The notes under the pieces were generated by a model that saw only the letters and a program-made list of their open reading frames with translations, searched no databases and was not told the origin of the DNA. DNA of 23,175 nucleotides from a virus, in the IMG/VR virus record IMGVR_UViG_3300009285_000420, positions 1-23,175 of that record; one strand, 5' to 3'. Shown piece after piece: positions 4,205 through 19,952 of this stretch. Each line of letters opens with the position of its first letter. The first letter of the stretch is position 1. Both the position numbers and the translations under genes were made by a program.

Positions 4205-4389
4205 TGGCTATCACTAGCTACGACGAGTCGATCAATTACGACGCTGCGATCCCCTACAACGGAGCGGAGGAGGCAGCAGCGGAGGCCGCTGGCTACCTTC
4301 TTATGCACGCGCCGGTACGCCGTCCGCCGGAGATAGACGATGAGGACGAATTGCTCGCCTGGTATTTCCTTGAGGTGATGGATGACTGA
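4204..4389 (+). CDS. Hypothetical acidic protein, 61 aa
   Basis: Not recognised. It begins with GTG at 4204, overlapping the TAG of the upstream gene by one base, and ends in TGA overlapping the next gene's ATG region by eight bases. The protein is acidic, especially at residues 41-61 (EIDDEDELLAWYFLEVMDD). It has an Ala-rich helix in the middle and no membrane segment. The tight overlaps support a real coding sequence despite the small size and GTG start. No function is assigned. Confidence 0.5.
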   Translation: MAITSYDESINYDAAIPYNGAEEAAAEAAGYLLMHAPVRRPPEIDDEDELLAWYFLEVMDD

Positions 4390-5077
4390 CGCATTGACCA
4401 AGATCGTGCTCGACACAGTGCAGACCGTACCGGAAGTCCTGCCGTACCTGTCCGCTGATGCGCGGCGGTTCGTGAAGTTACACGCGCTCAAGGCGGCTGG
4501 CGATTACACCTCTATCCGCGCCGAGATGAGCGGCGAAATCCACGATGCGATATATGATTACCTGACCAGCTCAGGCTATATCACGATATACAAGGCGTTG
4601 ATGGCTGCGGCTATCTCGAAGGCGTATGTCGCCGCGGCTGACGCAGGGTATCAGGACGCGGGAGCGGAACTACCGCTTGACGCAGAAACCGCAGCCTGGG
4701 CGCGGGCAGAACTGGATTCGCAGCTTGGTTTCGTGGATCAACTCTTTGAGAACTTGCGGGAATTACGGAAAGAGGGTGACGTGAACGCAACGGCGGAGGC
4801 GCTAGCGCGGGCGAACGGGTACGCAAGCGGATTGGATGGCTTCTACAATGAGGCAGTCTTACGCGGGTCCAAGAATAAGATGCTTACATTCACGCAGATA
4901 AGCGACACAAAAGAATCTTGTCCTGATTGCGTGAGGCTGCGCGGGCAGAGACATCGCGCGTCGTGGTGGGTTGAACATGATTTCGTACCCCCGAAAGGCG
5001 GCGGCTTGGCATGTGCGCCGGGCGGTAACTGCGGCGACGGTCTTGTAGACGATGACGGAAATGTAGTTACACTTTGA
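4382..5077 (+). CDS. Minor head / head morphogenesis protein (Mu gpF / SPP1 gp7-like)
   Basis: A 231-residue protein. It has an N-terminal helical half and a C-terminal cysteine-rich module: C180-x2-C183, then GQRH at about 189-192, a Trp-rich stretch, C211 and C217 followed by the small motif GDGLVDDDG. This arrangement matches the C-terminal region of phage minor head proteins of the Mu gpF/SPP1 gp7 group, which sit inside the procapsid near the portal. The four cysteines could bind a metal; that is inference. Its position downstream of the portal fits the family. It overlaps the upstream gene by eight bases. It is the last head gene before the cargo block, and no strong terminator follows. 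Confidence 0.6.
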   Translation: MTDALTKIVLDTVQTVPEVLPYLSADARRFVKLHALKAAGDYTSIRAEMSGEIHDAIYDYLTSSGYITIYKALMAAAISKAYVAAADAGYQDAGAELPLDAETAAWARAELDSQLGFVDQLFENLRELRKEGDVNATAEALARANGYASGLDGFYNEAVLRGSKNKMLTFTQISDTKESCPDCVRLRGQRHRASWWVEHDFVPPKGGGLACAPGGNCGDGLVDDDGNVVTL

Positions 5078-5103
5078 GACTTTTAAAATTAGAACATGCG
5101 GAC

Positions 5104-5109
5104 TATAAT
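5104..5109 (+). promoter_or_regulatory. Candidate promoter -10 box at the start of the cargo block
   Basis: A perfect TATAAT lies in the only gap (5078-5132) between the minor head gene and the cargo genes. The -35 region is weak: TTTTAA at 5081-5086 gives a 17-base spacer, while the better TTGAGA at 5074-5079 is 24 bases away. Transcription would start around 5116, leaving a short leader before the ribosome binding site AAAGGA at 5122-5127. Confidence 0.4.
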
Positions 5110-5132
5110 CGAATCGAGTAGAAAGGATTGGC

Positions 5133-5321
5133 ATGAGGATATTTGCAACAGACCAAAACGGCAACAAACAAGAAATAACCGATCTATATTGGTTTGAGGA
5201 AAACTACGTACATGATTTCAGCGGTCATGGGCGATTTACTATCGAGATCATCAACGAGACGCCAGCCGAAATCGAACTACCCGCCGAGCGGCTGGAGTTG
5301 CTAGAAAGTACAGACGAGTGA
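5133..5321 (+). CDS. Hypothetical protein, 62 aa (first gene of cargo block)
   Basis: Not recognised. The ATG at 5133 has a strong ribosome binding site (AAAGGA, 5122-5127), and its TGA overlaps the GTG of the SDR gene. The protein is acidic, has an aromatic patch (LYWFEENYVHDF, about residues 18-29) and ends in a Glu-rich helix. It contains no cysteines and no membrane segment. As the leading gene of the sugar-type cargo block it may be only a coupling gene that improves translation of the SDR. No function is assigned. Confidence 0.5.
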   Translation: MRIFATDQNGNKQEITDLYWFEENYVHDFSGHGRFTIEIINETPAEIELPAERLELLESTDE

Positions 5322-6007
5322 TCGCCCTTGTTACCGGCGGCTCACGCGGGATCGGCGCGGCATGCGTCCGTGCATTGAAGGACGCAGGGCATACCGTCGC
5401 GGTGGCAGGAAGGACAAGGGCGGACTGTGATTTATTCATCCATGCTGACCTGACAGATTTTTTTGGACGTAACCCGGTTGTATCTGAAGTGATAGACAAA
5501 CTTGGTAGTATTGACATCCTTGTCAACAACGCAGGCTCGCAGTATCATCAAAATCTTATCGAATACAGCGCGGGAAGATGGCGTGAACAAATCGAGTTGA
5601 TGCTTACCGTCCCGTTCTTTCTGTCCCAGGAAGCAGCCCGGCACATGCTCGCGCACGGCGGCGGGCATATCGTCAATATCCTTTCTACGTCCGCCTTCCA
5701 GGGAGCACGCAACATAGCCGGCTACGTCGCCGCGAAACATGGTCTGCTCGGCCTCACACGGGCGATGGCAATCGAACTCGCGCCGCTGATTCGGGTCAAT
5801 GCAGTGTGCCCCGGTTTAACGCAGACTAGCATGGTAGATGAATACATAACACCCGAACGGCGCAAGCTACTTGAAAGCATCACGCCCGCGGGCAGGTTCG
5901 GGAAGCCGGAGGAGATAGCCGGGGCGCTGATGTATCTAATTTCGAGTACATACGTTTACGGTCAGGTTATTACCGTTGACGGAGGGTGGCTTTCAAAAAA
6001 TGGCTAA
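5318..6007 (+). CDS. Short-chain dehydrogenase/reductase (classical SDR)
   Basis: A 229-residue NAD(P)-dependent oxidoreductase. It shows the classical SDR signatures in order: TGGSRGIG cofactor loop at residues 6-13, NNAG at 70-73, active-site S123 and Y136-x3-K140, and a C-terminal PEEIAGALMYL..VDGGW segment typical of the 3-oxoacyl-reductase-like group. R32 after the second strand hints at NADPH. The position usually held by the catalytic Asn (seven residues after W88) is Met95 here. The length is close to the usual 240-250. The GTG start at 5318 overlaps the previous stop, and the ATP-independent Rossmann start (MIALVTGG) fixes this start. It sits at the head of the sugar cassette and could reduce a keto-sugar or similar carbonyl; the substrate is unknown. 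Confidence 0.88.
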   Translation: MIALVTGGSRGIGAACVRALKDAGHTVAVAGRTRADCDLFIHADLTDFFGRNPVVSEVIDKLGSIDILVNNAGSQYHQNLIEYSAGRWREQIELMLTVPFFLSQEAARHMLAHGGGHIVNILSTSAFQGARNIAGYVAAKHGLLGLTRAMAIELAPLIRVNAVCPGLTQTSMVDEYITPERRKLLESITPAGRFGKPEEIAGALMYLISSTYVYGQVITVDGGWLSKNG

Positions 6008-7007
6008 ACTCATTCAGGCGAAAGACTTGCGCGGCGAGCGGCGGGAGCGGCTGATAGATGTCGTACCATTGCCCGCGCCGTGGACGCTTTTTATTGATCC
6101 GTGCAACGCGTGTAACTACAGATGCAAATTTTGCCCGACTGGACACCCCGACTTACTGCGTGAGTACGGGCGCAAGAACGTACTAATGAGTTACGAACTG
6201 TTCTGCAAGATCGTGGACGACCTGCGAGAATTTGACAGACCATGTAAGCAGGCGAATCTATATAAAGATGGCGAACCAACTCTACACCCCCGCTTTACCG
6301 ATATGGTGCGCTACATGAAGGATGCAAATGTGTCAGAGCGTATATGGGTGAAAACAAATGGTCATGTTTTGCGGCCTGAACTAAATGCCAAACTGGTAAC
6401 GTGCGGGCTGGATATGATCGGCGTGAGTGTAACAGGCATAAACGCGCAGATGTTTTACGACATTGCAGGCGTCAAAGTGGATTACGAAAAGTTTAGGGAT
6501 GGTGTGCTTGACCTGTTCGAGCGGAGCCGGGATACGAGTACACGGGTGTCAACAAAGATAGCAGACGTGGGTTTGACGGACGGCGACAAGCAGAAATTCC
6601 TTGACGACTTCTCTGACCGCTGTGATTTCATCGCCATAGAAAACCTGCATGGCTGGAGTACGTCCGACAAATTCGATTGGAAGCTGGGAACTAATCAGAG
6701 TTTTGATGGCACGCCGCGCACACAGAAAATAGCCTGCCCGCTGGTGCTCTACATGCTCGCGATCAACTCCAACGGCGACATTTCAATATGCAACGATGAC
6801 CAATACCATCTACACCAATTAGGGAACATCAAGAATGAAAGTCTGTACCAGATTTGGAACGGCGCACGATTGCGTGACTTCCGGCTGATGCACCTGGAAG
6901 CGCGCAAGAGCGAGAACGCGGCTTGTGGTACGTGCGACTATATACAGGCATTACCAGATAACATCGACAATGACCGCGAAGAATTCGCAGAAAGAATACA
7001 AAAGTGA
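6000..7007 (+). CDS. Radical SAM enzyme with SPASM-type C-terminus
   Basis: A 335-residue protein from the ATG at 6000, which overlaps the SDR stop by eight bases and has GGAGGG upstream at 5981-5986. The radical SAM cluster motif is C38-x3-C42-x2-C45, binding a 4Fe-4S cluster that cleaves S-adenosylmethionine. A C-terminal SPASM-like region follows with C246, C264, C309 and C312, plus the typical NSNGDISICNDD and LGN..SLYQIWNG patterns, expected to hold auxiliary iron-sulfur clusters. SPASM proteins modify peptides, but homologues are also frequent in polysaccharide and deoxysugar clusters. Here the neighbours (SDR, methyltransferase, ThDP enzyme, 3-dehydrase) favour a small-molecule or sugar substrate; that is inference. 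An iron-sulfur enzyme of this kind suggests low-oxygen conditions in the host. Confidence 0.88.
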   Translation: MAKLIQAKDLRGERRERLIDVVPLPAPWTLFIDPCNACNYRCKFCPTGHPDLLREYGRKNVLMSYELFCKIVDDLREFDRPCKQANLYKDGEPTLHPRFTDMVRYMKDANVSERIWVKTNGHVLRPELNAKLVTCGLDMIGVSVTGINAQMFYDIAGVKVDYEKFRDGVLDLFERSRDTSTRVSTKIADVGLTDGDKQKFLDDFSDRCDFIAIENLHGWSTSDKFDWKLGTNQSFDGTPRTQKIACPLVLYMLAINSNGDISICNDDQYHLHQLGNIKNESLYQIWNGARLRDFRLMHLEARKSENAACGTCDYIQALPDNIDNDREEFAERIQK

Positions 7008-7210
7008 GAAATATTAAAATAATTCCGCAGGTTGGTGAAAAAAGAATAAAAAGGTGGTTTGCGTGGTTCCCGGTTACAACCGAAAACTATCATGTCTCTG
7101 AAACCAGATGGCTTGAGTGGGTTACTGTTGAACAGAATTACGAGGGTATATCAAGAAATTACGGAATTGTCTATTATTGGGCAAATTCTTCTTTCGTGGA
7201 GGAAGAATGA
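7004..7210 (+). CDS. Hypothetical aromatic-rich protein, 68 aa
   Basis: Not recognised. The GTG at 7004 overlaps the radical SAM stop by four bases, and the TGA overlaps the ATG of the methyltransferase. The gene is distinctly AT-richer than its neighbours. The protein is rich in Trp and Tyr (RWFAWFPVTT at about residues 17-26, then W, L, E, W, V, T, V) and has a basic N-terminus and an acidic end. It has no cysteines and no clear membrane segment. Small Trp-rich proteins of this type are common accessory genes in phages. Its end supplies the GGAGGA (7198-7203) that serves the next gene. Confidence 0.5.
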   Translation: MRNIKIIPQVGEKRIKRWFAWFPVTTENYHVSETRWLEWVTVEQNYEGISRNYGIVYYWANSSFVEEE

Positions 7211-8223
7211 CCCGCCCCTGCCCCGTCTGTGAACACCCCTCCCGCACAGAAGTATTCCGTATGCCCTACCGCGTGCCCGATTCGTGGCCCTTGCCGTCCG
7301 AGATCATCTGGTATACCTGTTACGCCTGTTCGATGCTCTACGGCGACGGGGATTTCAATCAGGCGATGCTCAATGAGTATTACCTGAAATACTACGGTTA
7401 TGGCATCAACAACCCATCCAATATCGAGCGGCTAAAAATGGACGCGGTCGTGATAAGCGGTCTGGCGAAGCACGAGAGAGAGGCCGTCATTGTGGACTTC
7501 GGCGGCAACGGAGACGATGGTCGGAGCATCATCGTAGATATGTTGCGGGACAGGGGATATATCAACGCCGTCTGCGTGGGCGCGGGCGCCCCCCTGCCCC
7601 AGCAATGTGACCTTATCTACGCCTCACACGTTGTTGAGCACGTCTACGATCTGCCCGAAACGATGGAGCGCATCAGCGGCGCGCTTGCGCCTGACGGCCT
7701 ACTCATTATAGATGGGCCGGACGCGACGGGGCTTTTGCAACACTGGAAAATGCCGATTCTGGATTTCAACACGAAGCACATCAACCATTTCACGCTGCGA
7801 AACTATCTCGACTTGGGATACCGGCACGGCTTCGAATTGATAGACGTGCGGAAGTACGAGCTTGAGAACGCGCCCGCGTACCAGTTGCAATTCAGGCGGC
7901 TGGACGTGGCGCAGGAGTCAGCGAAGCACATCACAGACAATATATCCGCCCGCGTGGACAGGCTCAGGACGCTTGAGGGCTTGCCGCTCAACGTGTGGGG
8001 CATGGGTGATATTACGTGGCATCTGCTGGCACAGGTGGAATTGAACATCTTGGACTACATTGACAATGATCCCGCGTACCGTGGGCAGACGTACAACGGC
8101 AAGCCGGTACAGGAACGACCTACCAACGCCGCGCCGATATTAATAATGAGTCAAGGTCAAAGACAGAGACTTATCGAAAATATACGAAAGGCCGGGATTA
8201 CCAATCCCCTGATCGAAACATGA
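7207..8223 (+). CDS. Sugar C-methyltransferase-like protein
   Basis: A 338-residue protein from the ATG at 7207, preceded by GGAGGA at 7198-7203. Residues 5-41 form a zinc ribbon (C5, C8, C38, C41) as in NDP-hexose C-methyltransferases of the TylCIII group. A class I methyltransferase core follows: IVDFGGNGDDG near 95-105 in place of the usual glycine-rich motif I, and a YASHVVEHV segment near 145. The C-terminal domain (GMGDITWHLL, then DYIDNDPAYRG and NGKPV) matches the C-methyltransferase C-terminal domain. In that family a methyl group is added to a ring carbon of a keto-deoxysugar. The spacing after motif I is short and the usual acidic ribose-binding residue is not obvious, so SAM binding may be altered. 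The stop overlaps the next ATG. Confidence 0.65.
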   Translation: MTRPCPVCEHPSRTEVFRMPYRVPDSWPLPSEIIWYTCYACSMLYGDGDFNQAMLNEYYLKYYGYGINNPSNIERLKMDAVVISGLAKHEREAVIVDFGGNGDDGRSIIVDMLRDRGYINAVCVGAGAPLPQQCDLIYASHVVEHVYDLPETMERISGALAPDGLLIIDGPDATGLLQHWKMPILDFNTKHINHFTLRNYLDLGYRHGFELIDVRKYELENAPAYQLQFRRLDVAQESAKHITDNISARVDRLRTLEGLPLNVWGMGDITWHLLAQVELNILDYIDNDPAYRGQTYNGKPVQERPTNAAPILIMSQGQRQRLIENIRKAGITNPLIET

Positions 8224-8729
8224 ATGTATCACAAGCAATTTGGGAAAGACTGAAAAGTGAAGTTTCCACCGTATTCTACCTCCCCGGCGGTGGCTCCGGT
8301 CCGCTGGTGGATGCGCTGGGCGCGTCGGGATTGCGCGCCGTATGCTGTCTCCATGAACAATCAGCCGGGTATGCCGCGGTCGGGTATGCACAATACAAGG
8401 GTTTTGGCGTGTGCCTTGTGACGAGCGGACCCGGCGTTACCAATGCCATGACCCCCTGCCTTGCGGCGTGGCTGGATAGCGTGCCTGTTCTATTTATATC
8501 CGGGCAGGTTATGGTCAAGTGGCTGGCTCTACCTGGGATGCGCTCACGCGGGACGCAGGAAGGGCCGACGATTGAAATGGTGAGACCGATAACGAAATAC
8601 GTGGCGCAACCACAAAGCGCGGTAGAGGCGATGATTGAGTTAGACAACTGCATTACCGCAGCTAAGGAAGGCAGGCGCGGCGGTGCTTGGCTCGATATTC
8701 CAATGGATGTGCAGGCCGCCGATGTATAA
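8220..8729 (+). CDS. ThDP enzyme, N-terminal (PYR) half, acetolactate synthase-like
   Basis: A 169-residue protein equal to the pyrimidine-binding domain of acetolactate synthase-like thiamine diphosphate (ThDP) enzymes. It shows YLPGGGSGPLVDAL (20-33), the cofactor-activating glutamate E46 in HEQSAGYAAVGYA, TSGPGVTNA and the terminal WLDIPMDVQ. It ends cleanly at the domain boundary. Family members are normally one chain of about 550 residues; this half and the next gene (379 aa) together make 548. The ATG at 8220 overlaps the upstream stop (ATGA), and its TAA overlaps the next ATG by eight bases, so the two halves are likely co-translated and assemble. In a sugar cluster the closest functional precedent is YerE, which transfers a two-carbon unit from pyruvate to a keto-sugar; that role here is inference. 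Confidence 0.82.
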   Translation: MNVSQAIWERLKSEVSTVFYLPGGGSGPLVDALGASGLRAVCCLHEQSAGYAAVGYAQYKGFGVCLVTSGPGVTNAMTPCLAAWLDSVPVLFISGQVMVKWLALPGMRSRGTQEGPTIEMVRPITKYVAQPQSAVEAMIELDNCITAAKEGRRGGAWLDIPMDVQAADV

Positions 8730-9858
8730 GCCAGTGATAATTCTCGGTAACGGCATCCGCAATAACCCTGCGCTCATCGAACATCTATGCAGTCTGAACA
8801 TCCCGATTTGCACAACTTGGATGGCGGCGGACTTACTCCCTGAAAACTCACCTGTGTTTATAGGCCGCCCCGGAATCTTCGGGCAACGCGCCGCGAATAT
8901 TGCGACGCAAAAAGCGACCCATCTCTATTGCTTCGGCGCGCGGCTGGACGGCGAACAGGTCGCCTACGACTACGACCGCTTTGCGCCGAATGCTCAAATC
9001 TATGTGTATGACATTGATGAGGCGGAAGCGCAGAAGTTCCCGAAGCGTTACCATGTTTCGCAGACCCTTGACTGTAGAGACGATATTGATTTTCTTCCAT
9101 CCCTTGCCCCGCCTCATCGCGATTGGCTCAACTGGTGCAAGGCGCTCTACGCCCGCTTCCGCCCGGAACTGGACGGCTGGGTGCATGAAACTATGGATGT
9201 TCACAAGTGGGCACAGTATGTTAATCCGTTTCGGCTGATGTCTTTACTTCATGAATTCAGCCATCCCGATGACGTATTCGCCCTCGGCTCATCGGGCAAC
9301 GCGCCAACCGTGTTCTTTCAGGCATATAAAGTCAAGGCGGGGCAGCGAATCTCCAACGTCTGCACGATTGGCGCAATGGGCGCTGATATTCCGATGGCTC
9401 TCGGCTCTGCTCTCGCATCCGGGCGGCGCACCATCTGCGTGACGGGCGACGGCGGCTTTGCCATGAACGCGCAGGAACTTGAGACGATCCGGCGACTGAG
9501 ATTGCCGATTATCTTCTTTGTGATGAACAACGGTGGCTATAACAGTATTCGAGTGGGACAGCTTGCGCGCTTCGGGCGCGTGACAGGAGCGAACCCACAA
9601 AGCGGGCTGACGCTCCCCAGCATCGAAGCGATTGCGGAGGCGTATCGCTTTGTGTACATGCCGCTGAGGGGCATGGATTTGTCAAACTTCTGCAAATGTC
9701 TGGACTTTGCTCCGATGATAGTTGAGGTATTCGTAGACCCCGACTGGCAGCAGCTCCCGCGCGTAATGGCATCGGGCAACCCTATCAGGACAGATGACAT
9801 GCAGGACATGACGCCTAAGATTGATGATTTACAGGCTCTTATGGAGTGGGATGGGTAA
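8722..9858 (+). CDS. ThDP enzyme, central + C-terminal (PP) half, acetolactate synthase-like
   Basis: A 379-residue protein from the ATG at 8722 (MYKPVIILGNGIRNN). It starts exactly where the central domain of acetolactate synthase-like enzymes begins and contains the C-terminal diphosphate-binding domain: G242-D243-G244 and N269-N270, the GDG-x24-NN Mg2+/ThDP motif. Together with the preceding gene it supplies all parts of one enzyme, but in two chains and in different frames. The linker of about 20-30 residues that usually joins the first two domains is absent, which argues for a true split rather than a sequencing frameshift. Family enzymes decarboxylate pyruvate or a related 2-keto acid and transfer the resulting fragment. 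A longer start at 8683 (CTG/TTG type) would overlap the upstream gene by 47 bases and is not preferred. Confidence 0.82.
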   Translation: MYKPVIILGNGIRNNPALIEHLCSLNIPICTTWMAADLLPENSPVFIGRPGIFGQRAANIATQKATHLYCFGARLDGEQVAYDYDRFAPNAQIYVYDIDEAEAQKFPKRYHVSQTLDCRDDIDFLPSLAPPHRDWLNWCKALYARFRPELDGWVHETMDVHKWAQYVNPFRLMSLLHEFSHPDDVFALGSSGNAPTVFFQAYKVKAGQRISNVCTIGAMGADIPMALGSALASGRRTICVTGDGGFAMNAQELETIRRLRLPIIFFVMNNGGYNSIRVGQLARFGRVTGANPQSGLTLPSIEAIAEAYRFVYMPLRGMDLSNFCKCLDFAPMIVEVFVDPDWQQLPRVMASGNPIRTDDMQDMTPKIDDLQALMEWDG

Positions 9859-9881
9859 CGCCTCATCCAGAAAGGAAGAAA

Positions 9882-9998
9882 ATGAACAGTGATAAACCAG
9901 GATGCTTTGGATTGGTGGAGGTGATTTCAAGAGCCGTTATGATTCTAATCGCCTCAATTATAATAATACAACTTATACAATCATGTTCGCCTGTCTAG
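9882..9998 (+). CDS. Small single-pass membrane peptide, 38 aa
   Basis: The ATG at 9882 has a strong ribosome binding site (AAAGGAAG, 9871-9878). The peptide has a short polar N-terminus and a hydrophobic stretch at about residues 14-33 rich in Ile (including IASIIIIQLI), followed by a short C-terminus with one cysteine, and stops with TAG at 9996. It is AT-rich compared with the flanking enzyme genes. The size and single helix recall small phage membrane peptides, but no family is recognised. Confidence 0.45.
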   Translation: MNSDKPGCFGLVEVISRAVMILIASIIIIQLIQSCSPV

Positions 9999-10030
9999 CG
10001 CGTTGACGCTGGCGGCAAGAAAGGAAAACT

Positions 10031-10210
10031 ATGTTAACAGGTATATCTATTTTGTTGGCCTTGGTAATTGGTTTAATAGGTATTGCTCTAATACCGCCCG
10101 ATAAGAGAATGGGAGATTTAGAACCAGACCCGCCCCTATGCGATATTTGCGGAGCGATCAGCACAATACTGTTTCTTCTCTCTCTGGTATTCTATTATTA
10201 CCACATATAA
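10031..10210 (+). CDS. Small two-helix membrane protein, 59 aa
   Basis: The ATG at 10031 is preceded by AAGAAAGGAAA (10017-10027), a good ribosome binding site. The protein has a hydrophobic N-terminal helix (about residues 4-22), a short polar loop with acidic and proline residues and a CDIC motif (37-40), and a second hydrophobic segment (about 42-58) ending in an aromatic YYYHI. The layout resembles a holin or a small inner-membrane modifier, but the length and context do not settle it. Its place between sugar enzymes also fits a membrane protein of a surface-modification cassette. No family is recognised. Confidence 0.5.
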   Translation: MLTGISILLALVIGLIGIALIPPDKRMGDLEPDPPLCDICGAISTILFLLSLVFYYYHI

Positions 10211-10300
10211 GGCGATTACTAATTGTTTCGTAAGTCCTTTGCTTTACGAGTTATCGCAGTAAAACAGGAAATAAAATAATTTTCAACCGTAGAGTGTCGT

Positions 10301-10330
10301 TGTACACCTGCTACTCAATGGAGGTGTGCA
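10301..10330 (+). promoter_or_regulatory. Hairpin that buries the ribosome binding site of the 3-dehydrase gene
   Basis: Bases 10301-10309 (TGTACACCT) pair with 10322-10330 (AGGTGTGCA) in a nine-base-pair stem with one G-T pair and a 12-base loop. The strong ribosome binding site GGAGGTG (10320-10326) lies in the 3' arm, and the ATG follows directly at 10331. The upstream stretch 10211-10300 shows no gene. Confidence 0.5.
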
Positions 10331-11479
10331 ATGAAAGTCCCTATTTCGGGGCAAGTGACTGGAAAGGAAGAAGCGGATAACGTGATGCAGGTCGCAAACT
10401 CGCAGAGCTATGGCGGCTTCATCTGGACGAACCGCTTCGAGCGCGGCTTTGCCCGATTCATGAGCGCGCGTGAGGCGATCCTGTGCAATAGCGGGTCATC
10501 CGCAAATCTGCTGGCATTGGCTGCGCTGGAACTGCCAAAAGGAAGCGAAGTCATCACGACGGCGGTGAACTTCCCCACGACGGTCAATTGCATCATCCAG
10601 CTTGGGCTAGTGCCGGTGTTCGTGGATAGTGACCCAAAGACGCTGAATAATATTAATATGGCGAATGTTTGGGAAGCCATCAGCGATAAAACACGCGCTG
10701 TCATTATGGCGCATGCACTCGGAAACCCTGTTGATCTGTCTGGTATATGTGATTGGTATCCAACTATCGAAGATTGCTGCGACGCGGTAGGGAGCACAAT
10801 CAACGGGCAAATGGTTGGTCGTCGCGGCATAATGTCTACCGTCTCATTCTACCCGGCGCATCATATCACTACCGGGGAGGGAGGCGCGGTGCTAACAGAC
10901 AGCCCGCGGCTGAGGAAGGTCATCGAGAGTTATCGCGACTGGGGGCGGGATTGTTTCTGTGAACCAGGTAAAGATAATACATGTGGAAAACGCTTCAACT
11001 ACGAAGTCGATCATAAATATATTTACAGTCGTATCGGATGGAACCTCAAAGCTAACGACTTAGCCGCCGCTGTAGGTGTAGCGCAATTAGATAGATTAGA
11101 AGGTTTTATACAGAAGCGCCGCGAGAATTGGGCTTACTTGAACGAAGGTTTGAAGGATTTGCCGATTGAGATAGTTCAAGCTACTCCTGGTAGCAATCCG
11201 TCATGGTTTGGTTTTGCGTTCTTGACAGAAAGACGTAACGAATTGGCGCGTTATCTTGACGAGCACGGTGTAGGCAGTAGACCTGTGATGGCTGGTAATT
11301 TATTACGGCAACCAGCTTACCGAAAATTGATAAATGGCGTAGATTATCGTGTGGTAGGTAATTTGGATGGAGCCGATTTAATATATGAGCGCGGTATTTG
11401 GATTGGCGTATTCCCAGGAATCACCCCGGACATGCGAGACTATCAAGTCGAAGTAATACGGAAGTATTTCAATGGATAA
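10331..11479 (+). CDS. rfbH: CDP-4-keto-6-deoxyglucose 3-dehydrase homologue (E1/RfbH/AscC family)
   Basis: A 382-residue DegT/DnrJ-fold protein. The usual PLP lysine is replaced by histidine in SFYPAHHITTGEGG (H177 in the position of the E1 catalytic His). The four [2Fe-2S] cysteines of E1 are present with exact spacing: C150-x57-C208-x1-C210-x7-C218, in the signature RDWGRDCFC..DNTCGKRF. E1 uses pyridoxamine phosphate plus the iron-sulfur cluster to remove the C3 hydroxyl from CDP-4-keto-6-deoxyglucose, with electrons from a separate reductase (E3). It is shorter than family members of about 435 residues, lacking mainly N-terminal sequence and a short loop before DHKYIYS. The substrate is inferred by family. 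The stop overlaps the next ATG by eight bases. The second half of the gene is visibly AT-richer than the first. Confidence 0.88.
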   Translation: MKVPISGQVTGKEEADNVMQVANSQSYGGFIWTNRFERGFARFMSAREAILCNSGSSANLLALAALELPKGSEVITTAVNFPTTVNCIIQLGLVPVFVDSDPKTLNNINMANVWEAISDKTRAVIMAHALGNPVDLSGICDWYPTIEDCCDAVGSTINGQMVGRRGIMSTVSFYPAHHITTGEGGAVLTDSPRLRKVIESYRDWGRDCFCEPGKDNTCGKRFNYEVDHKYIYSRIGWNLKANDLAAAVGVAQLDRLEGFIQKRRENWAYLNEGLKDLPIEIVQATPGSNPSWFGFAFLTERRNELARYLDEHGVGSRPVMAGNLLRQPAYRKLINGVDYRVVGNLDGADLIYERGIWIGVFPGITPDMRDYQVEVIRKYFNG

Positions 11480-12149
11480 AGTTTTAGTCACAGGCGGGAC
11501 CGGCTTCTGCGGTTCATGGATGCGGCAGACCGCCCCGCCCGATTTACGTATCAGTTACTTCGGCAAAAGCGACTACGAACTACGACACTGGGAATGGATG
11601 ACCTGGGATTACATCGTACACCTTGCGAATATCTCGCCGTATGAAGTCCTGGAATTCAGCCAGCCATTCGGTGTCCGCGTGCTATACGCTTCGAGCGGGA
11701 TCGTCTACCACGATGAGAACGATACCGAGTACAGGCAGAATAAACTCGATTGGGAAAAAGAGTGCCTGGACAGCGGCATCGATGTAGTCATTGCGCGCCT
11801 GTTCACCTTCTACGGCGAGCGCCTAGACGATGGCAAGGCATACACCCAATTTGTCCAGGCGGCGAAGGCAGGCGAGCCGCTCAAGATTTGGGGCGACGGG
11901 TCTTGTGTGCGGTCATATATGTATGGCGCAGAACTTGGCCGCTGGCTGTGGGCGATCCTGCTACGGGGCGAGCGCGGGCAGGCGTATGACGTGGGGGATG
12001 ATACGCCGGTCACGATGCTGGAACTTGCGCGCAGGATCATCAGCCACTACCGGAGCAAATCTGAGATCATCATGGAGCCAGACCACCACATCCCGATGCC
12101 GTTCTATATGCCGCGTGACACGGCTAAAACGAAGAGGCTTTTGAAATAG
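11472..12149 (+). CDS. NAD-dependent sugar epimerase/reductase (extended SDR, short)
   Basis: A 225-residue Rossmann protein. It has the cofactor motif TGGTGFCG at residues 7-14, LYASSGIVY at 71-79 (active-site Ser), Y87-x3-K91, RLFTFYGERL near 109-118 and GDGSCVRSYMYGAEL near 141-155. These are the hallmarks of nucleotide-sugar epimerase/dehydratase/reductase proteins. It is about 80-100 residues shorter than typical members, with a shortened segment after the first strand and a trimmed C-terminus. It is coupled to the 3-dehydrase by an eight-base overlap. By context it may reduce or epimerise the 4-keto group of the sugar made by the preceding enzymes, as YerF or abequose synthase do; the exact reaction is not shown. 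Confidence 0.82.
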   Translation: MDKVLVTGGTGFCGSWMRQTAPPDLRISYFGKSDYELRHWEWMTWDYIVHLANISPYEVLEFSQPFGVRVLYASSGIVYHDENDTEYRQNKLDWEKECLDSGIDVVIARLFTFYGERLDDGKAYTQFVQAAKAGEPLKIWGDGSCVRSYMYGAELGRWLWAILLRGERGQAYDVGDDTPVTMLELARRIISHYRSKSEIIMEPDHHIPMPFYMPRDTAKTKRLLK

Positions 12150-12153
12150 AGCT

Positions 12154-12291
12154 ATGTGGTCATATCGTTTTATGATTTATATCTGTGAGATTGGGTGGAT
12201 AATTTATGACCGTGCTTTAGTTACCCACCGCTGGCGGGCGCTGGACAAGCACCGCCGCGACTGCAAAGAATGTTGGAAGAAAGGAAGTTGA
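12154..12291 (+). CDS. Small basic protein, 45 aa
   Basis: A short frame from ATG 12154 to TGA 12291, starting four bases after the epimerase stop. The protein is Trp-rich and basic. The C-terminal half (THRWRALDKHRRDCKECW) has an H-x3-C-x2-C pattern that could bind metal. The 3' end supplies the AAAGGAAG (12280-12287) used by the next gene. It resembles short accessory peptides of phages, but no family is recognised. The ribosome binding site (TAGAG at 12147-12151) is weak, so confidence is moderate. Confidence 0.4.
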   Translation: MWSYRFMIYICEIGWIIYDRALVTHRWRALDKHRRDCKECWKKGS

Positions 12292-12294
12292 GTA

Positions 12295-12564
12295 ATGGGC
12301 AACGATAACGATATTGAGAACGATATTGAGTTTGTAGGGTTAGAGGATATTACCCACCGATACACAGAAATGTTTGATTATTACAAGCCTCCACTGCCTG
12401 ACGATGTGTTTGCATATCTATTAAAGGTGAAAATAGGTGGGTATGGATATACCTGGGTATACAGATTCGCAGGTGATTTTGTAAGGTCAAAGGATTTTGC
12501 CAACATCGCGAAAGACGTGGCGATACGCAAGACCAAAAGGTACTTGACAGAACATAAAATCTAA
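12295..12564 (+). CDS. Hypothetical protein, 89 aa
   Basis: Not recognised. The ATG at 12295 follows AAAGGAAG (12280-12287). The N-terminus is acidic (MGNDNDIENDIEFVG). A Tyr-rich middle (YYKPPLPDDVFAYLL, then GGYGYTWVYRF) and a basic C-terminal helix (KRYLTEHKI) follow. The gene is AT-rich. It is the last gene of the cargo block before the promoter-terminator unit. There is no cysteine motif or membrane segment. Confidence 0.55.
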   Translation: MGNDNDIENDIEFVGLEDITHRYTEMFDYYKPPLPDDVFAYLLKVKIGGYGYTWVYRFAGDFVRSKDFANIAKDVAIRKTKRYLTEHKI

Positions 12565-12569
12565 TTCTG

Positions 12570-12578
12570 TGTTATAAT
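12570..12578 (+). promoter_or_regulatory. Extended -10 promoter upstream of the capsid gene
   Basis: TGTTATAAT is a perfect extended -10 box (TG, one base, TATAAT). TTGACA stands at 12544-12549, but its 23-base spacer is too long for a normal -35, so the extended -10 would carry the activity. Transcription should start near 12585. Confidence 0.5.
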
Positions 12579-12584
12579 GCTTGC

Positions 12585-12712
12585 AGGCAGGAATGCCGAA
12601 GTTTAAGGCACTGAATACGTGTTGACACAGACAGTGCTTAACTAATACAACCCCAGGTTATAGCCGGTTATCTTTCGACTCGAAATGGGTCGGGAAAGAT
12701 AACCGGCTTTTT
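12585..12712 (+). ncRNA. Candidate small RNA or terminated leader
   Basis: The stretch from the predicted start near 12585 to the terminator at 12712 has no open frame of note. It can fold into two hairpins: 12606-12613 with 12632-12639 (eight base pairs, one G-T), and the 15-pair terminator stem. A transcript of about 128 bases would result. It could be a stand-alone small RNA, or a leader that is read through to express the capsid gene. Confidence 0.35.
12662..12712 (+). terminator. Strong intrinsic terminator
   Basis: Bases 12662-12676 pair perfectly with 12694-12708 (15 base pairs, AGCCGGTTATCTTTC and its complement) across a 17-base loop, followed by TTTTT (12708-12712). It lies 23 bases before the capsid ATG and closes the cargo block. 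Confidence 0.8.
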
Positions 12713-12735: not shown

Positions 12736-14802
12736 ATGCCGAACGTTTCGGAATACGACGATAAAGACAAATGGATGAGCGCGTGTATGTCCGCCATGAC
12801 GGAAGAGGGGAAAGAACAGGACGAAGCCGCCGCCGCGTGCATGTCTATGTGGGGAGAAAAAAAGTCATTCTACGGGATGTCTGTGGAAGATGCGGTCAAG
12901 CATTTCCTGAAAATCGGCGCGCGGCACACGCGCAAAGAAACAGAGGCGTTCCAGACCGTGCATGACATCATGGTGGAAAACGGCGCTGAGTGTGAAAAGC
13001 CAGGGGGTGAAATGCCGATGATGGAGGGCAAATCGCTGGATGAGGAATATATCTACCCCGGCGATGCGGTCAAAGCCACGTCATTGGACGGCGGTGCGGT
13101 CAAACTAGGGGGTTATCTAATCAGTTTCAGGGATGCAGAGAATACAGACCTGGCGGGCGACTATTTCACGAAAAGGGCCAACTACGGCGATGCAAAACAG
13201 TCTGATGTATGGTTCAACCACCGCCTGCCGATCCAGATCAAAAAGCACAACATCGAAGTGAAATACACCGAGCCGCTATCCAATAAAGCGACGCTTACCA
13301 TTGATGACGTTGGAGTGTTTGCCGAGGTGGTAATCGAAGCGCGTAATGAATACGAAAAGACAATCGCGGAACTGGGACTTGCGGGGAAATTAGCCTGGTC
13401 ATCCGGCACAGCTTCGCACCTTGTAGACCGCAAAGCAATCAAGAGCGGCGTGTGGGAAATCACGCGCTGGCCTCTTGGTCTGGACGCGTCACTGACCCCT
13501 ACCCCGGCAGAATTCCGCAAGACCAACCAGATACTACCAATTAAATCGTTACTAACTTCCCATACGGCGTTGCCCGTTGAGGAGTATAACCAAACTAAAC
13601 CAACCAATCAACCTGTTACCAAACAAAGGGAGAACATCATGGAAGAAGAAATCAAATCCGCCGTTGATAAGGCGGTCGCAGACGCGCTTGCAATGCGCGA
13701 AGCGAAAACCCAGGCGGAATTGCAGAAGGCGGCAGAATTGAAAGCTGCTGAGGACGCCGGGTACAAAAAGGCCATTGAGGAATTGAAGGAGCACGGGCCG
13801 CAGAAGTTCTACCACCCCACCGAGCCGACCGACGATGACAACGATGGTATCGGAGCATTCAAGTCCTGGCTCAAGACCGGGCAGGAAAATCAAGGGCTGA
13901 TCCGCCCCGACTCGTCCTTCGACAACATCAAGGCAGGCAAGGCGGCCTGGAACATCACGACCGGAGCAAGCGGTGGATTCCTGGTTCCTGATCCCCTGTA
14001 CAACCAGATCATCGCCAAGCGCGACATTATGTCGTGGGCGCGGCAGGTTCCTTGCACGTTCCTGACGACCCCTTCCGATCACCTGTTGGTCCCGCGTGAA
14101 GACACCAAGCTAACCGATTTCGTCCTGACGGCTGAGGCTGGTACATACGATGAGAATGAGGGCACGGTATCGCAGAAAGACCTCATCTTGTACAAGTACA
14201 CCAAGCTGACCAAGATGAATGAAGAGTTCTTGATGTACAACGGCACGAACTGGGAAGCATGGTTTACCAATGCCCTGGGTCGTGCGGTTGCCAACACCGA
14301 GAACACCATCTACACCACAGGCACAGGCACGGCGCAGCCTGAGGGTATCGTGACCGGCGCGACGGTTGCAAACACGACCGCCACGACCGATGTCATTCTG
14401 CCTTCAGAACTTTCGGCCCTGATCGGCTATCTCGGCGGCGGGTATAACGTGCCGTCCGAGTCCGCCATGCTCATGGCGAATAAGACCAAATGGTATCTCA
14501 AAGGCAGTGGCGGAACATCGGCTGTCCCGTTTGCATACGTGCAGACCCCGCAGGATGGCGATTTCTTCGGCTACAAGGCTGTCATTGATGACGACCTTGA
14601 CCCGTATACCACAGCCTCAGCCAAGTGCGTCGTGTTCGGCAATTTCTCCTACTACGCAGTAGTGGAAAAGCCGGGCATGGTCGTACAGCGCAACCCCTAC
14701 CTGTACATGGCAACCGGGCAAATCGGTATCTTCGCCTCTATCTTCCGCGGTGGCGGAGTACTTCAGAGCGAAGCATTCTACTATCTGACCAACGCTGCAT
14801 AA
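12736..14802 (+). CDS. Prohead protease-major capsid protein fusion (HK97-like)
   Basis: A single 688-residue frame. Residues 1-100 carry a Cys/Met-rich start (CMSAM, CMSMW at 17-39) seen ahead of phage proteases. Residues 105-260 are an HK97-family prohead protease: NTDLAGDYF, H162 in WFNHRLPI, S222/S223 in LAWSSG and EITRWPLGLDASLTPTPAE (241-259). Residues 300-355 are a Lys/Glu/Ala-rich helix, the likely delta/scaffold region. Residues 400-688 are the major capsid protein, starting at NITTGASGGFLVPDPLY. Normally these are two genes. An in-frame ATG at 13639 (residue 302) has AAAGGGAG at 13625-13632 and sits at the boundary, so a 387-residue capsid precursor could be made separately. The ATG at 12736 has AAAGGGA upstream. 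Confidence 0.85.
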   Translation: MPNVSEYDDKDKWMSACMSAMTEEGKEQDEAAAACMSMWGEKKSFYGMSVEDAVKHFLKIGARHTRKETEAFQTVHDIMVENGAECEKPGGEMPMMEGKSLDEEYIYPGDAVKATSLDGGAVKLGGYLISFRDAENTDLAGDYFTKRANYGDAKQSDVWFNHRLPIQIKKHNIEVKYTEPLSNKATLTIDDVGVFAEVVIEARNEYEKTIAELGLAGKLAWSSGTASHLVDRKAIKSGVWEITRWPLGLDASLTPTPAEFRKTNQILPIKSLLTSHTALPVEEYNQTKPTNQPVTKQRENIMEEEIKSAVDKAVADALAMREAKTQAELQKAAELKAAEDAGYKKAIEELKEHGPQKFYHPTEPTDDDNDGIGAFKSWLKTGQENQGLIRPDSSFDNIKAGKAAWNITTGASGGFLVPDPLYNQIIAKRDIMSWARQVPCTFLTTPSDHLLVPREDTKLTDFVLTAEAGTYDENEGTVSQKDLILYKYTKLTKMNEEFLMYNGTNWEAWFTNALGRAVANTENTIYTTGTGTAQPEGIVTGATVANTTATTDVILPSELSALIGYLGGGYNVPSESAMLMANKTKWYLKGSGGTSAVPFAYVQTPQDGDFFGYKAVIDDDLDPYTTASAKCVVFGNFSYYAVVEKPGMVVQRNPYLYMATGQIGIFASIFRGGGVLQSEAFYYLTNAA
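13625..13641 (+). promoter_or_regulatory. Internal ribosome binding site and in-frame ATG for capsid protein alone
   Basis: AAAGGGAG (13625-13632) followed at six bases by ATG 13639-13641, in frame at residue 302 of the fusion. It lies exactly between the protease domain and the capsid scaffold region. The preceding 25 codons (Thr/Gln/Asn/Pro-rich) read like a translated former gap between two genes. Confidence 0.5.
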
Positions 14803-14813
14803 GAGGTGATGAC

Positions 14814-15251
14814 ATGTCACGCAACAAGAATCCTGATGTCCAGAAGTCGATGGTTGCAGTAGCAGCCAGCGGCGGACAAGTTGGTGCGCTGGTCGGAACA
14901 AAGGTCGACGCGACCGGATACTCCCGCGCGCACTTCATCTTCAATTTCGGCAATGGCGCTGCCACAACCGCCGCACTTTCGGCGGGTATTGGCCCCTGGC
15001 AGGCGTCCACATCCGGCGCAACTTACGCCGCTATTGCCAGTGCATCCCTGGCCGCTGTGACCTCCGGCGTGCTATCGAGCACCTCGGTCACGCTAGAAGT
15101 GGATGTGCCTATTTCGGCGGGCACGCCCTGGTTGCTTGTCTCCGGTGGATCACTGCTCTCGACAGCCGTCCCGCATTCATGCGTGGTGGAACTGTACAAC
15201 GGCATCAATCGTCCGCCAACAGCATCCAGCGTCGAAGTCGTAACCGTCTAA
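14814..15251 (+). CDS. Decoration-like virion protein, 145 aa
   Basis: The ATG at 14814 has the ribosome binding site AGAGGTGAT (14802-14810), which decides this start over longer frames that run into the capsid gene. The protein is Ala/Ser/Thr/Val/Gly-rich and strand-rich, with no membrane segment. It has a short polar N-terminus (SRNKNPDVQKS) and then beta-type sequence (HFIFNFGNG, VTLEVDVPI, VELYNG). It directly follows the major capsid protein, the usual place of capsid decoration or stabilising proteins. The assignment rests on position and composition, not on a recognised motif. Confidence 0.5.
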   Translation: MSRNKNPDVQKSMVAVAASGGQVGALVGTKVDATGYSRAHFIFNFGNGAATTAALSAGIGPWQASTSGATYAAIASASLAAVTSGVLSSTSVTLEVDVPISAGTPWLLVSGGSLLSTAVPHSCVVELYNGINRPPTASSVEVVTV

Positions 15252-15302: not shown

Positions 15303-16049
15303 TTGCACATATTCCACTGGGTTCCCTCATCTGGCGCGCCGCCTCCGTGGTCGTGCGTCCACTCGTGGGTAAACCTGCTGTTGCCCGAGGGCGCAAAGCG
15401 GACATTTAGACAGAGCGGCGCGGGATCGGTTCGCGTCATCTGGAACGATATTGTGCGGGAGTTTCTCGCAACCGACGCCGAATGGATGTTCAGCACTCAC
15501 CACGATGTTGTATTTGTCCCTGAAACACTTACGCGCCTTTTGTCCTGGGATAAGCCTCTCATATCGGCGCTAGTGTTCATGAGACATAACCCGGTCGTCC
15601 CGCAGATTTGGAAGTCCTACGACGGCGATGAGGGCCATTATGTGATGCGGATCAATGATACGCGTGATTGGTTCTACGACCACAAAGAGTGGATCAAGTT
15701 CGGGCCGTTCCTAATAGACCCCTGCCCGGACGATGCGCTTGTCTCTGTCGGCTTCACCGCAACCGCCTGCACGCTAATACACCGGACTGTGCTTGAGGAC
15801 ATCCGCGCAAAAGTTCCCGACCAGGGAGACGGCCTGTGGTTCGCCTGCGACAACGAGACTTCGGGCGGCGGGGAAGATCGTCGCTTCTACGAGTACGCGC
15901 GGCAAGCCGGGTATGAAGCGTTTGTAGACCGCTCCTGTATAGCAGGTCATGTAGCTGGCGATATTCCCACATCCAGCGCAGATTTTATCGCCTGGGATAG
16001 CGTGAGCGATTTTCATAACACAGGAGAGCCGGAGGCGGTGGCGGAATGA
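15303..16049 (+). CDS. Glycosyltransferase-like protein (GT-A type)
   Basis: A 248-residue protein. The pattern is that of GT-A glycosyltransferases found in phages: an N-terminal strand (HIFHWVPSSG), EWMFSTHHDVVFVPETLTRLL (about 60-80) with HHD in place of the usual acidic metal-binding DxD, LISALVFMR, then TATACTLIHRTVLEDI (about 158-173) and an acidic/aromatic end (GGGEDRRFYEYARQAGYEAFVDRS). Such enzymes move a sugar from a nucleotide donor to an acceptor. The start is uncertain: no ATG is near the beginning, and the first candidate is TTG 15303 with GGAAAG at 15288-15293. It overlaps the DNA methyltransferase by four bases. It is a possible user of the unusual sugar made by the cargo block; that is inference. 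Confidence 0.65.
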   Translation: MHIFHWVPSSGAPPPWSCVHSWVNLLLPEGAKRTFRQSGAGSVRVIWNDIVREFLATDAEWMFSTHHDVVFVPETLTRLLSWDKPLISALVFMRHNPVVPQIWKSYDGDEGHYVMRINDTRDWFYDHKEWIKFGPFLIDPCPDDALVSVGFTATACTLIHRTVLEDIRAKVPDQGDGLWFACDNETSGGGEDRRFYEYARQAGYEAFVDRSCIAGHVAGDIPTSSADFIAWDSVSDFHNTGEPEAVAE

Positions 16050-18558: not shown

Positions 18559-18758
18559 CAATCCCTGATTTGGCTAAGATGTATGAAGAATATCTGAAAG
18601 GCGCTTTGAAATTTCATCGTGTTGTAGCTTCGCCGCCGATAGAAAACACCGAAGAAATTCAAAGACTATATGAAGCAGGTGACACTGTAGGCGCTCAGAA
18701 ATTAATACTGGTAGAACTGGAAAAAGAAAACCAAGAGGCAGGTGAACATGGCAATTAA
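18555..18758 (+). CDS. Hypothetical helical protein, 67 aa
   Basis: Not recognised. The ATG at 18555 overlaps the gp10-like stop (ATGA). The protein is mostly helical and charged, with a Glu/Lys-rich end (LVELEKENQEAGEHGN) that could form a short coiled coil. It contains no cysteines and no membrane segment. The gene is AT-richer than the neck genes. It overlaps the next gene by 11 bases. Confidence 0.5.
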   Translation: MTIPDLAKMYEEYLKGALKFHRVVASPPIENTEEIQRLYEAGDTVGAQKLILVELEKENQEAGEHGN

Positions 18759-18951
18759 ATTACATTACATAGGCCAGGGAGACGCGATCATACACGTACC
18801 CGCCCGCGACCTGACGGACGAAGATTTCGCCGAGCGTGCGGAACTCTGGAAGGAAATTGGAATAGATGAGGCCGGGATACTTGCGAGCGGCCTCTACAAG
18901 AAACCAACAGCCGAACAAAAAAAGGTAATAGCGGCAAAGGAAGGTAAATAA
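18748..18951 (+). CDS. Hypothetical protein, 67 aa
   Basis: The ATG at 18748 is chosen over the GTG at 18742 because AGAGG (18734-18738) lies nine bases upstream. The protein begins with a strand-rich segment (IKLHYIGQGDAIIHVPARDLT) and ends in a basic helix. The GDAIIHVPARDLTDED pattern is like small proteins found next to the major tail protein in many siphoviruses. The stop overlaps the major tail protein ATG by one base. No biochemical role is assigned. Confidence 0.5.
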   Translation: MAIKLHYIGQGDAIIHVPARDLTDEDFAERAELWKEIGIDEAGILASGLYKKPTAEQKKVIAAKEGK

Positions 18952-19952
18952 TGGCTGGTCGTAGAAGTTTGAGAAAGTTACAATTTTACAGGGAGGCAAC
19001 AGCCGGGACAACCTCATCCGCGACGTTTGTTTTTCGCGGCATCGGGACGATCCTGGACAATATCCAGGTGCAACGTGTCAGTGAGGACATCGGAATCATC
19101 AGCGGCACGACCCGCACGAATGTTCCGATGAAGGGCGGAACGCTGGCAATCAGTCAAACCCCCGCGACATTTGAAAGTCTCCTGCATATCCTGGAAATGA
19201 GTGTAAAAACCGTTGCCGGTTCTCAGGATGGCGCAGGGACGGATTATATCTATACCTATGCGTTCCCCACTACCGCAGGCAACGCGATCAAGACTTATTC
19301 CATCGAGAGCGGAGATGATAACGAAGTCGAACGCATGGCGTATTGTTTCGTCAAGGACTGGACGCTATCCGGCAATGGGCGCACCGCATATCAGCTACAG
19401 GCAAACATCCAGGGGCGCGCCCCTGCCCTGGGCGCATTTTCGGCTGGGCTGTCCTTGTTAGCCGTCAATAACATGAATTTCGGGTTGACGAAAATCTACC
19501 AGGATGCAATCGGCGGCACAATTGGAACAACGATCAAGTCCAACACGGTGCGCGGCGTCAATTTCAAGTTCGCATCGGGGATCGAAGCGAAGGATACGGC
19601 GGACGGGCGTCTTGACTTTTCGTTCACGCAAGGCACGGATTATGTAGTTACCTGTGACCTGGAATTCGAGCATGATGCAATCGCCGCCGCGCAGAAAGTC
19701 TTGTGGCGCGCCCAAACCCCCGTCCTACTGCAAGTCAAAGTCGAAGGTTTAACGGCGTTCGCCACTCCCGGCACGACATACAGCGTTCCCACCCTGAAGA
19801 TCAATCTCCCCGGCTATTGGGAGAGTTTCTCGAAGATCGGGGAAGCCAATGGCAATGATATTGTGACGGGTAAATTTGTGTCAGCCTATGACACTACTGC
19901 CGCCGCCGCCGGGTCCGTAGTGGTCGCGGTGGAGCTTAGTACGGTGCCTTGA
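18951..19952 (+). CDS. Major tail (tube) protein
   Basis: A 333-residue, strand-rich protein of the size and composition of siphovirus tail tube subunits. It has a basic start (MAGRRSLRKLQFYREATAG), then GIGTILDNIQV, TPATFESLLHILEM (about 67-80) and repeated Thr/Gly-rich strands, with a C-terminal Ala/Val-rich end. It lies after the neck genes and before the tail chaperones and tape measure, the fixed place of the major tail protein. The minus-strand HNH gene overlaps its 3' end by 17 bases. No single hallmark motif is present, so the call rests on size, composition and order. Confidence 0.7.
   Translation: MAGRRSLRKLQFYREATAGTTSSATFVFRGIGTILDNIQVQRVSEDIGIISGTTRTNVPMKGGTLAISQTPATFESLLHILEMSVKTVAGSQDGAGTDYIYTYAFPTTAGNAIKTYSIESGDDNEVERMAYCFVKDWTLSGNGRTAYQLQANIQGRAPALGAFSAGLSLLAVNNMNFGLTKIYQDAIGGTIGTTIKSNTVRGVNFKFASGIEAKDTADGRLDFSFTQGTDYVVTCDLEFEHDAIAAAQKVLWRAQTPVLLQVKVEGLTAFATPGTTYSVPTLKINLPGYWESFSKIGEANGNDIVTGKFVSAYDTTAAAAGSVVVAVELSTVP

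Follow-up and report, generated by a model that had tools for sequence, protein, structure and literature searches.

A conserved operon among tailed-phage head genes, encoding a two-chain YerE-like carboligase, is predicted to make a branched dideoxysugar

Introduction

In the synthesis of yersiniose A, a branched sugar of Yersinia pseudotuberculosis lipopolysaccharide (LPS) made with AscC/E1 and YerE, YerE adds pyruvate-derived activated acetaldehyde to CDP-3,6-dideoxy-4-ketoglucose (PMC12247030). Here, we analyze a cassette of enzyme genes in the head module of a phage, located between the end of a head gene (position 5077) and the start of the capsid gene (position 12736) in the 23,175-base IMG/VR virus record IMGVR_UViG_3300009285_000420, hereafter called the window. 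The cassette resembles the yersiniose A pathway in its RfbH-type iron-sulfur E1 dehydrase, its YerE-like carboligase, its reductases of the short-chain dehydrogenase/reductase (SDR) type and its cytidine diphosphate (CDP)-sugar logic. It differs in being phage-borne, in dividing the thiamine diphosphate (ThDP) enzyme between two chains, and in carrying an additional C-methyltransferase and a radical S-adenosylmethionine (SAM)/SPASM enzyme; moreover, neither a cytidylyltransferase nor a 4,6-dehydratase is present in the window, and a different use is expected.

Two other sets of described enzymes are close to cassette proteins. JanthE (8rph), a YerE-like enzyme (PMC12188165), and its relatives (PMC12247030, PMC12188165) provide the best PDB match when both ThDP halves are combined, and the canonical catalytic Glu is shared; in contrast to JanthE, the phage enzyme consists of two polypeptides and has a GDG motif in place of CDG. 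The sugar C-3-methyltransferases TcaB9, KijD1 and MtmC share their fold, zinc motifs and SAM domain with the phage methyltransferase, though at about 16% identity and with about 410 residues compared to 338.

Sugar genes in viruses have precedents. Mycobacteriophage Maravista encodes glycosyltransferases suggesting capsid glycosylation (PMC11256854), and the Megavirinae make their own bacterial-like rare sugars in a clade-specific manner (PMC10117803). Both have virus-encoded glycosyltransferases, as does the present locus, and the giant viruses also share virus-encoded rare sugar synthesis; here, however, a tailed phage carries a multi-enzyme branched-sugar operon within its head genes. Groundwater phages are reported to have auxiliary metabolic genes for O-antigen nucleotide sugars (galE, rmlB/D, gmd, rmd and manA), which are likewise phage-borne; we saw neither E1 nor a YerE-like enzyme nor an ordered branched-sugar operon in the text consulted (PMC12911398, PMC10980836). 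Phage nucleotide-sugar genes are already known, but our literature searches turned up no description of this pathway, its head location or its split enzyme. Such genes are usually classed as auxiliary host-remodelling genes, whereas here a rare-sugar operon is fixed among head genes in several lineages.

Materials and Methods

The open reading frames (ORFs) of the window were listed, and their proteins were run against Pfam, NCBIfam and PHROG profiles. The window proteins were also searched against IMG/VR contigs, and relatives were mapped by tblastn.

Results

Yersiniose-type enzymes form one operon

Judging by its encoded enzymes, the block very probably makes a branched dideoxysugar. All enzymes named in a sequence-only reading of the window were confirmed by ORFs and profiles, in the same order and on a single strand, between the head gene and the protease-capsid gene (Table 1). 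That reading had also taken the overlapping genes to act as one pathway, and a single coupled operon is supported: overlaps of 4-8 bases join neighboring enzyme genes, except around the small genes and at a 470-base gap before E1. For example, the gene for the ThDP C half begins within the ATGTATAA overlap. Because the substrate of YerE is the product of E1, an operon with genes for both E1 and the ThDP enzyme leads to a predicted C-4-branched 3,6-dideoxysugar; by analogy, E1 and YerE-like genes together are the logic of yersiniose synthesis.

The identity of E1 is well marked. Its score exceeds the curated cut-off of the RfbH profile NF011936 (450.2 versus 423 bits), and it aligns to the CDP-6-deoxy-hexulose 3-dehydrase 3bcx (2.6e-105). 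The cluster motif C-X57-C-X1-C-X7-C, equivalent to C193/C251/C253/C261 of 3bcx, is invariant across 14 phage E1 proteins, as is the His in SFYPAHH (H220 of 3bcx) that takes the place of the pyridoxal phosphate (PLP) Lys. Aminotransferases and ColD have no [2Fe-2S] cluster, so that the cluster motif and the His together set E1 apart from them.

The ThDP C half matches JanthE (1.4e-43) and then 5ahk (8.6e-27) in the PDB, while the N half matches 5ahk (1.2e-25) and then JanthE (1e-21); we take 5ahk to be the P. protegens YerE homologue. The same comparisons bear on whether the enzyme is instead an acetolactate synthase or another carboligase, with the block serving cofactor, amino-acid or small-molecule metabolism. 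Its Pfam and NCBIfam profiles do belong to the acetolactate synthase superfamily, but the NCBIfam acetolactate matches lie far under their cut-off (about 110 versus 538 bits), the C half matches plant or E. coli acetohydroxyacid synthase at 2.3e-25 or worse, well behind JanthE, and the rest of the operon consists of sugar-nucleotide enzymes. We regard such a metabolic role as improbable.

The ThDP enzyme is encoded by two genes, one for the PYR half and one for the remainder, at 19 of 19 loci of the phage clade, in different frames and at a spacing that ranges between -10 and +960 bases; a frameshift or sequencing error behind the split is ruled out by this variety. Single chains are found in the bacterial relatives L060, L152 and L155, in phage L110 and in a third phage lineage (L136-L138). 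In the C-half tree, the bacteria and third-lineage phages stand apart from a group of L110 plus the split forms at 100/99, and L110 stands apart from all split forms at 100/98, which agrees with a single split in the ancestor of the phage clade. In G003 (34744-35730; L051 14744-15730), a GIY-YIG endonuclease-like ORF is located between the two half genes, and the split may plausibly have arisen when the gene was broken at a homing-endonuclease site. Another GIY-YIG endonuclease-like ORF, by sequence likeness, lies between the SDR and radical SAM genes of L068 (6666-7268). As a single chain is the usual form, although catalysis does not demand it, we call the enzyme a YerE-like variant rather than a plain member. 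Its sequence predicts a two-chain YerE-like carboligase that accepts ketones, and it would be a new, naturally two-chain type of biocatalyst for tertiary alcohols.

The methyltransferase has profile matches to sugar 3-C-methyltransferases. For its AlphaFold2 (AF2) model, with a predicted local distance difference test (pLDDT) score of 87, the best 18 Foldseek matches are all sugar C-3-methyltransferases with E-values of 1e-13 to 1e-15, and the next match of another kind has 1.5e-08; the TM-scores reach only about 0.5, which probably reflects a difference in domain orientation. The CxxC pairs are invariant, the zinc, SAM and C-terminal domains follow the TcaB9/KijD1 order, and the fold matches over its full length. 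In the radical SAM/SPASM enzyme, the CX3CX2C motif and the C-terminal cysteines are invariant in the alignment. Among 50,697 cultured phage records, the radical SAM protein has no match, and the closest ThDP and E1 proteins have less than 31% and less than 48% identity, respectively. The conserved enzyme set predicts a branched sugar that is as yet undescribed.

Radical SAM enzymes occur in phage base-modification pathways, and a DNA methyltransferase lies nearby; further, PADLOC pVip profiles match the radical SAM domain (9e-13). The sugar or the radical SAM product could, by this account, modify phage DNA or act as a viperin-like chain terminator. The operon, however, has no base-modification partners, the enzyme has a SPASM domain, and the NCBIfam viperin profile reaches 38.8 bits against a cut-off of 180, which rules out viperin-like defense and leaves the account as a whole very improbable.

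The cassette is an old phage module at a variable junction

The block recurs in more than 12 IMG/VR contigs from various metagenomes (group 1) at 50-100% identity, with the same junction and, as far as each contig reaches, the same order: portal, head gene, SDR, radical SAM, methyltransferase, ThDP N and C halves, E1, epimerase, capsid, small protein and glycosyltransferase. Two group-1 contigs are circular as assembled (G002, 56,311 unique bases; G012, about 40 kb), but biological circularity is not claimed as their end overlaps of 115 and 127 bases may be assembler overlaps. Comparisons of the window, G002 and G003, where synonymous substitution (dS) is unsaturated, give nonsynonymous to synonymous ratios (dN/dS) of mostly 0.07-0.3, indicating purifying selection.

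Related phages lacking the block at this junction, which the sequence-only reading suggested seeking, do exist. In L104 the site is cleanly empty: the portal (63%) and head gene are followed by a gp10-like gene and, about 90 bases further on, by the capsid (72%). G008 has the same cassette-free arrangement with a more distant capsid. There are also variant sites: L107 carries the methyltransferase alone, L102 a different set, and L105 has E1, the epimerase and a shortened ThDP pair. With full, partial, variant and empty forms at one place, this junction can be regarded as a variable locus.

A second, unrelated head lineage (group 2: L069/G014, L070/G015, L073/G016 and L076/G017) contains 40-50% homologues of the cassette enzymes, rearranged and flanked by a different portal on one side and a Mu-F-type head gene on the other; scaffold and capsid genes come next, and then a GT4 gene and another transferase gene (Nucleotid_trans). 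G015 is circular as assembled (46,825 bases). In L076 (14306-16327), the post-capsid GT4 glycosyltransferase has an internal intein splicing domain (PF14890). A NeuB-like synthase is encoded between the radical SAM and ThDP genes in L083 (11382-12239, minus strand, PF03102) and, by likeness, in G016 (18561-19430). The third phage lineage, L138 (4890-12665) and L137, has heptose-type genes with a fused YerE-like ThDP enzyme; L138 also has a radical SAM gene and a GT2-like ORF just before a terminase-like gene.

The edges of the cassette are sound. Contigs L032, L002 and L004 from other metagenomes span positions of about 5100 and 12700 at 100% identity, and both junctions are seen again in divergent relatives (50-90% identity); the misassembly that had been a concern at these positions is ruled out. 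The window is nevertheless a composite of two phage genomes, with a switch outside the cassette: up to 14840 it is identical to copy 2 of G001 (first few hundred bases excepted), and from 14951 it is identical to G002. The 110-base switch region (14841-14950) is either an assembly chimera or a true recombinant. G001 (IMGVR_UViG_3300025030_000076, 80,305 bases) is itself a tandem of two related phage genomes: a 26.4-kb part that matches G002 exactly adjoins the phage of the window's left half.

Two phage genomes are indeed joined in G001 and in the window, and homologues of several cassette genes exist in bacterial clusters, which might suggest an assembly chimera or a recent capture of a host cluster (a moron in the narrow sense). 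The switch, however, is not at either cassette edge, and the junctions recur in independent metagenomes and divergent relatives. Moreover, when 398 Pseudomonadota genomes were searched by profile, the radical SAM relatives, located in LPS-type clusters, had only 30-37% identity; the ThDP enzymes of these bacterial relatives are fused, and the split phage forms are one clade. Two scans of genome contigs for a close chromosomal copy, insensitive because they used few short patterns, yielded no relative of the radical SAM enzyme and a single ThDP relative of 33% identity. A close chromosomal copy of the cluster free of phage genes, the alternative raised initially, was not found in these searches. 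Recent capture or chimerism is refuted in substance, and we assign it a negligible chance.

Of the moron layout proposed initially, an extra gene set with its own signals, the terminator is real, the promoter is plausible and empty sites exist. A moron in the sense of a loose and recent insertion is not supported: the block is conserved and old rather than sporadic, being under purifying selection, present in two head lineages and marked by one ancestral ThDP split. On these sequence comparisons, the cassette is an old, conserved and probably vertically kept phage module.

Of the two proposed framing signals, the 15-pair terminator stands firm: its z-score of -6.7 in the window compares to -5.8 in G002, where stem bases have changed yet still pair. 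The TATAAT box (5104-5109) is a plausible signal, chiefly on account of the unusual conservation around it, with about 55 bases nearly identical in G002 while the neighboring genes are only about 70% alike; the consensus scan overall was at chance (10 sites versus 9.5 expected).

Proposed destination of the sugar and proposed pathway

A glycosyltransferase gene follows the capsid and small protein genes in every group-1 contig of sufficient reach. The protein has no Pfam family; Foldseek matches of its model include Mnn9, STIV A197, LH3, mimivirus R699 and the collagen galactosyltransferase ColGalT1. We put the virion as acceptor of the sugar at about an even chance. In seven records we found no integrase or resolvase gene, and neither the GtrA flippase nor the GT2 (GtrB) gene of a gtrABC serotype-conversion cassette, which weakens lysogenic surface conversion and makes virion glycosylation the preferred destination. 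Accordingly, of the two uses suggested by the sequence-only reading, virion glycosylation appears to fit better and host-glycan remodelling less well.

Alternatively, the same sugar could end up at the host surface, in its O-antigen or capsule, and block superinfection or the re-adsorption of phages to debris. The nearest non-phage relatives are indeed in LPS-type clusters (L060, L152, L153 and L155), LPS is known to contain products of YerE-like enzymes (PMC12247030), and groundwater phages are reported to have O-antigen nucleotide-sugar genes (PMC12911398, PMC10980836). Besides the absence of surface-conversion genes in the seven records, this destination is opposed by the position of the genes within the head module of two lineages, beside late structural genes, and by the soluble-looking transferases after the capsid; we consider it rather unlikely.

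In the preferred pathway, CDP-4-keto-6-deoxyglucose would be supplied by host enzymes or, in sister phages, with phage RfbF or RfbG homologues. E1 would then remove the hydroxyl at C-3 with electrons from a host donor, and the two-chain YerE-like enzyme would decarboxylate an alpha-keto acid and transfer the acyl group to the C-4 ketone, yielding a tertiary alcohol. The product would be reduced by the SDR and/or the short epimerase/reductase, with further tailoring by the C-methyltransferase and radical SAM enzyme. During late expression, the post-capsid glycosyltransferase would most likely move the sugar, as a host-independent glycan, onto a virion head protein. Overall, we somewhat favor the reading that this phage operon makes a yersiniose-type sugar, a C-4-branched 3,6-dideoxysugar in nucleotide-activated form, that is transferred to the virion; gene identities, motifs, conservation, location and the split come from sequence, while the exact substrate, step order and acceptor are inferred.

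Several observations weigh against this reading. In Pfam and NCBIfam scans, a cytidylyltransferase (RfbF) and a CDP-glucose 4,6-dehydratase (RfbG) are not among the window ORFs. An E3-type reductase (PF00175) is absent from 11 related records, so that E1 would need a host electron donor, though the identity of E1 is unaffected. The branched-deoxysugar set proposed initially is therefore present as a cassette but not as a complete pathway, and the missing steps have to be provided by the host, or partly by the phage itself in the case of sister phages. In group 2, the best profile matches fall below their cut-offs, both for the RfbF-like cytidylyltransferase of G015 (TIGR02623, 231 versus 300 bits) and for the RfbG-like 4,6-dehydratase of G014 (TIGR02622, 187 versus 278 bits); G016 and G017 have ORFs similar to these. 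NeuB-like ORFs occur in G014 (tested) and G016, so that the end product of some group-2 phages differs or is more complex. The radical SAM/SPASM enzyme weakly matches BtrN and MoaA in the PDB and has no assigned pathway step. Further, the glycosyltransferase is present in the cassette-free L104 and has homologues in the tail modules of otherwise different phages (L108, L111 and L115), which makes its link to the cassette sugar circumstantial; nor is the enzyme strictly tied to the capsid.

The operon's location in the head genes, beside a capsid-adjacent glycosyltransferase, means that self-glycosylation of tailed-phage heads can be tested directly. Tentatively, at least two unrelated head lineages of tailed phages may build their own rare branched dideoxysugar for their capsids, with the junction beside the capsid, upstream of a conserved glycosyltransferase, acting as an exchangeable 'capsid serotype' locus. 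If true, this would be a phage counterpart to bacterial O-antigen variation, built on a two-chain YerE-like carboligase so far seen only in phages.

Features of the window and its flanks

Table 1. Cassette genes, flanking genes and transcription signals in the window.
Feature	Coordinates	Strand	Evidence or remark
Head gene downstream of portal (left flank)	4382..5077	+	same post-portal position in G002, G003, G008, L104
Promoter-like site TTTAAA-16-TATAAT at cassette head	5082..5109	+	10/12 match
Small protein, 62 residues	5133..5321	+	last 17 residues conserved beside SDR
SDR	5318..6007	+	PF13561 4.5e-45
Radical SAM/SPASM enzyme	6000..7007	+	PF04055 Radical_SAM 2.9e-14, PF13186 SPASM 3.9e-13
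Small protein, 68 residues, not conserved	7004..7210	+	no family match
Sugar C-methyltransferase-like enzyme	7207..8223	+	Methyltransf_23; two CxxC zinc motifs, SAM domain, C-terminal Rossmann-like domain
ThDP carboligase, PYR half, catalytic Glu in HEQ	8220..8729	+	PF02776 TPP_enzyme_N 5.2e-30
ThDP carboligase, central + PP half, GDGG..NN cofactor motif	8722..9858	+	PF00205 TPP_enzyme_M, PF02775 TPP_enzyme_C
Two candidate small hydrophobic peptides, 38 and 59 residues	9882..10210	+	in gap before E1
E1, RfbH-type CDP-4-keto-6-deoxyglucose 3-dehydrase, [2Fe-2S] motif	10331..11479	+	DegT family; NF011936
Short extended-SDR epimerase/reductase, GGTGFxG + YxxxK	11472..12149	+	PF01370 1.1e-16
Small protein, 89 residues	12295..12564	+	weakly conserved (40% in G003)
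Extended -10 (TGTTATAAT), candidate capsid promoter	12570..12578	+	conserved in G002
Intrinsic terminator, 15 perfect pairs	12662..12712	+	z = -6.7
Fused protease/major capsid protein (right flank)	12736..14802	+	PF05065 5.8e-27; phrog_10
Small protein, possibly decoration	14814..15251	+	always adjoins capsid in group 1
GT-A-fold glycosyltransferase, candidate sugar user	15303..16049	+	alignment; AF2 pLDDT 80; Foldseek

The cassette is flanked by phage genes, including portal, head, capsid, head-tail adaptor and tape measure genes in the window and a terminase gene in a relative; the head gene at the left flank receives no name from Pfam or PHROG, and no RNA families were found in the window. 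The portal ORF (3-1889) includes a 2H phosphoesterase (2'-5' RNA ligase-like) domain at residues of about 225-400, and the G002 portal is missing exactly this domain, its matches to residues 1-222 and 400-628 being adjoining. The capsid N-terminus (12736-12852; G009 25216-25332) has a 39-residue motif, MPNxxxYDDKDKWMxxC, that is 64% alike and common to phages whose capsids are otherwise barely alike. Among the tail genes, an HNH-type ORF is located on the opposite strand (19936-20217, minus) and is also found in G002.

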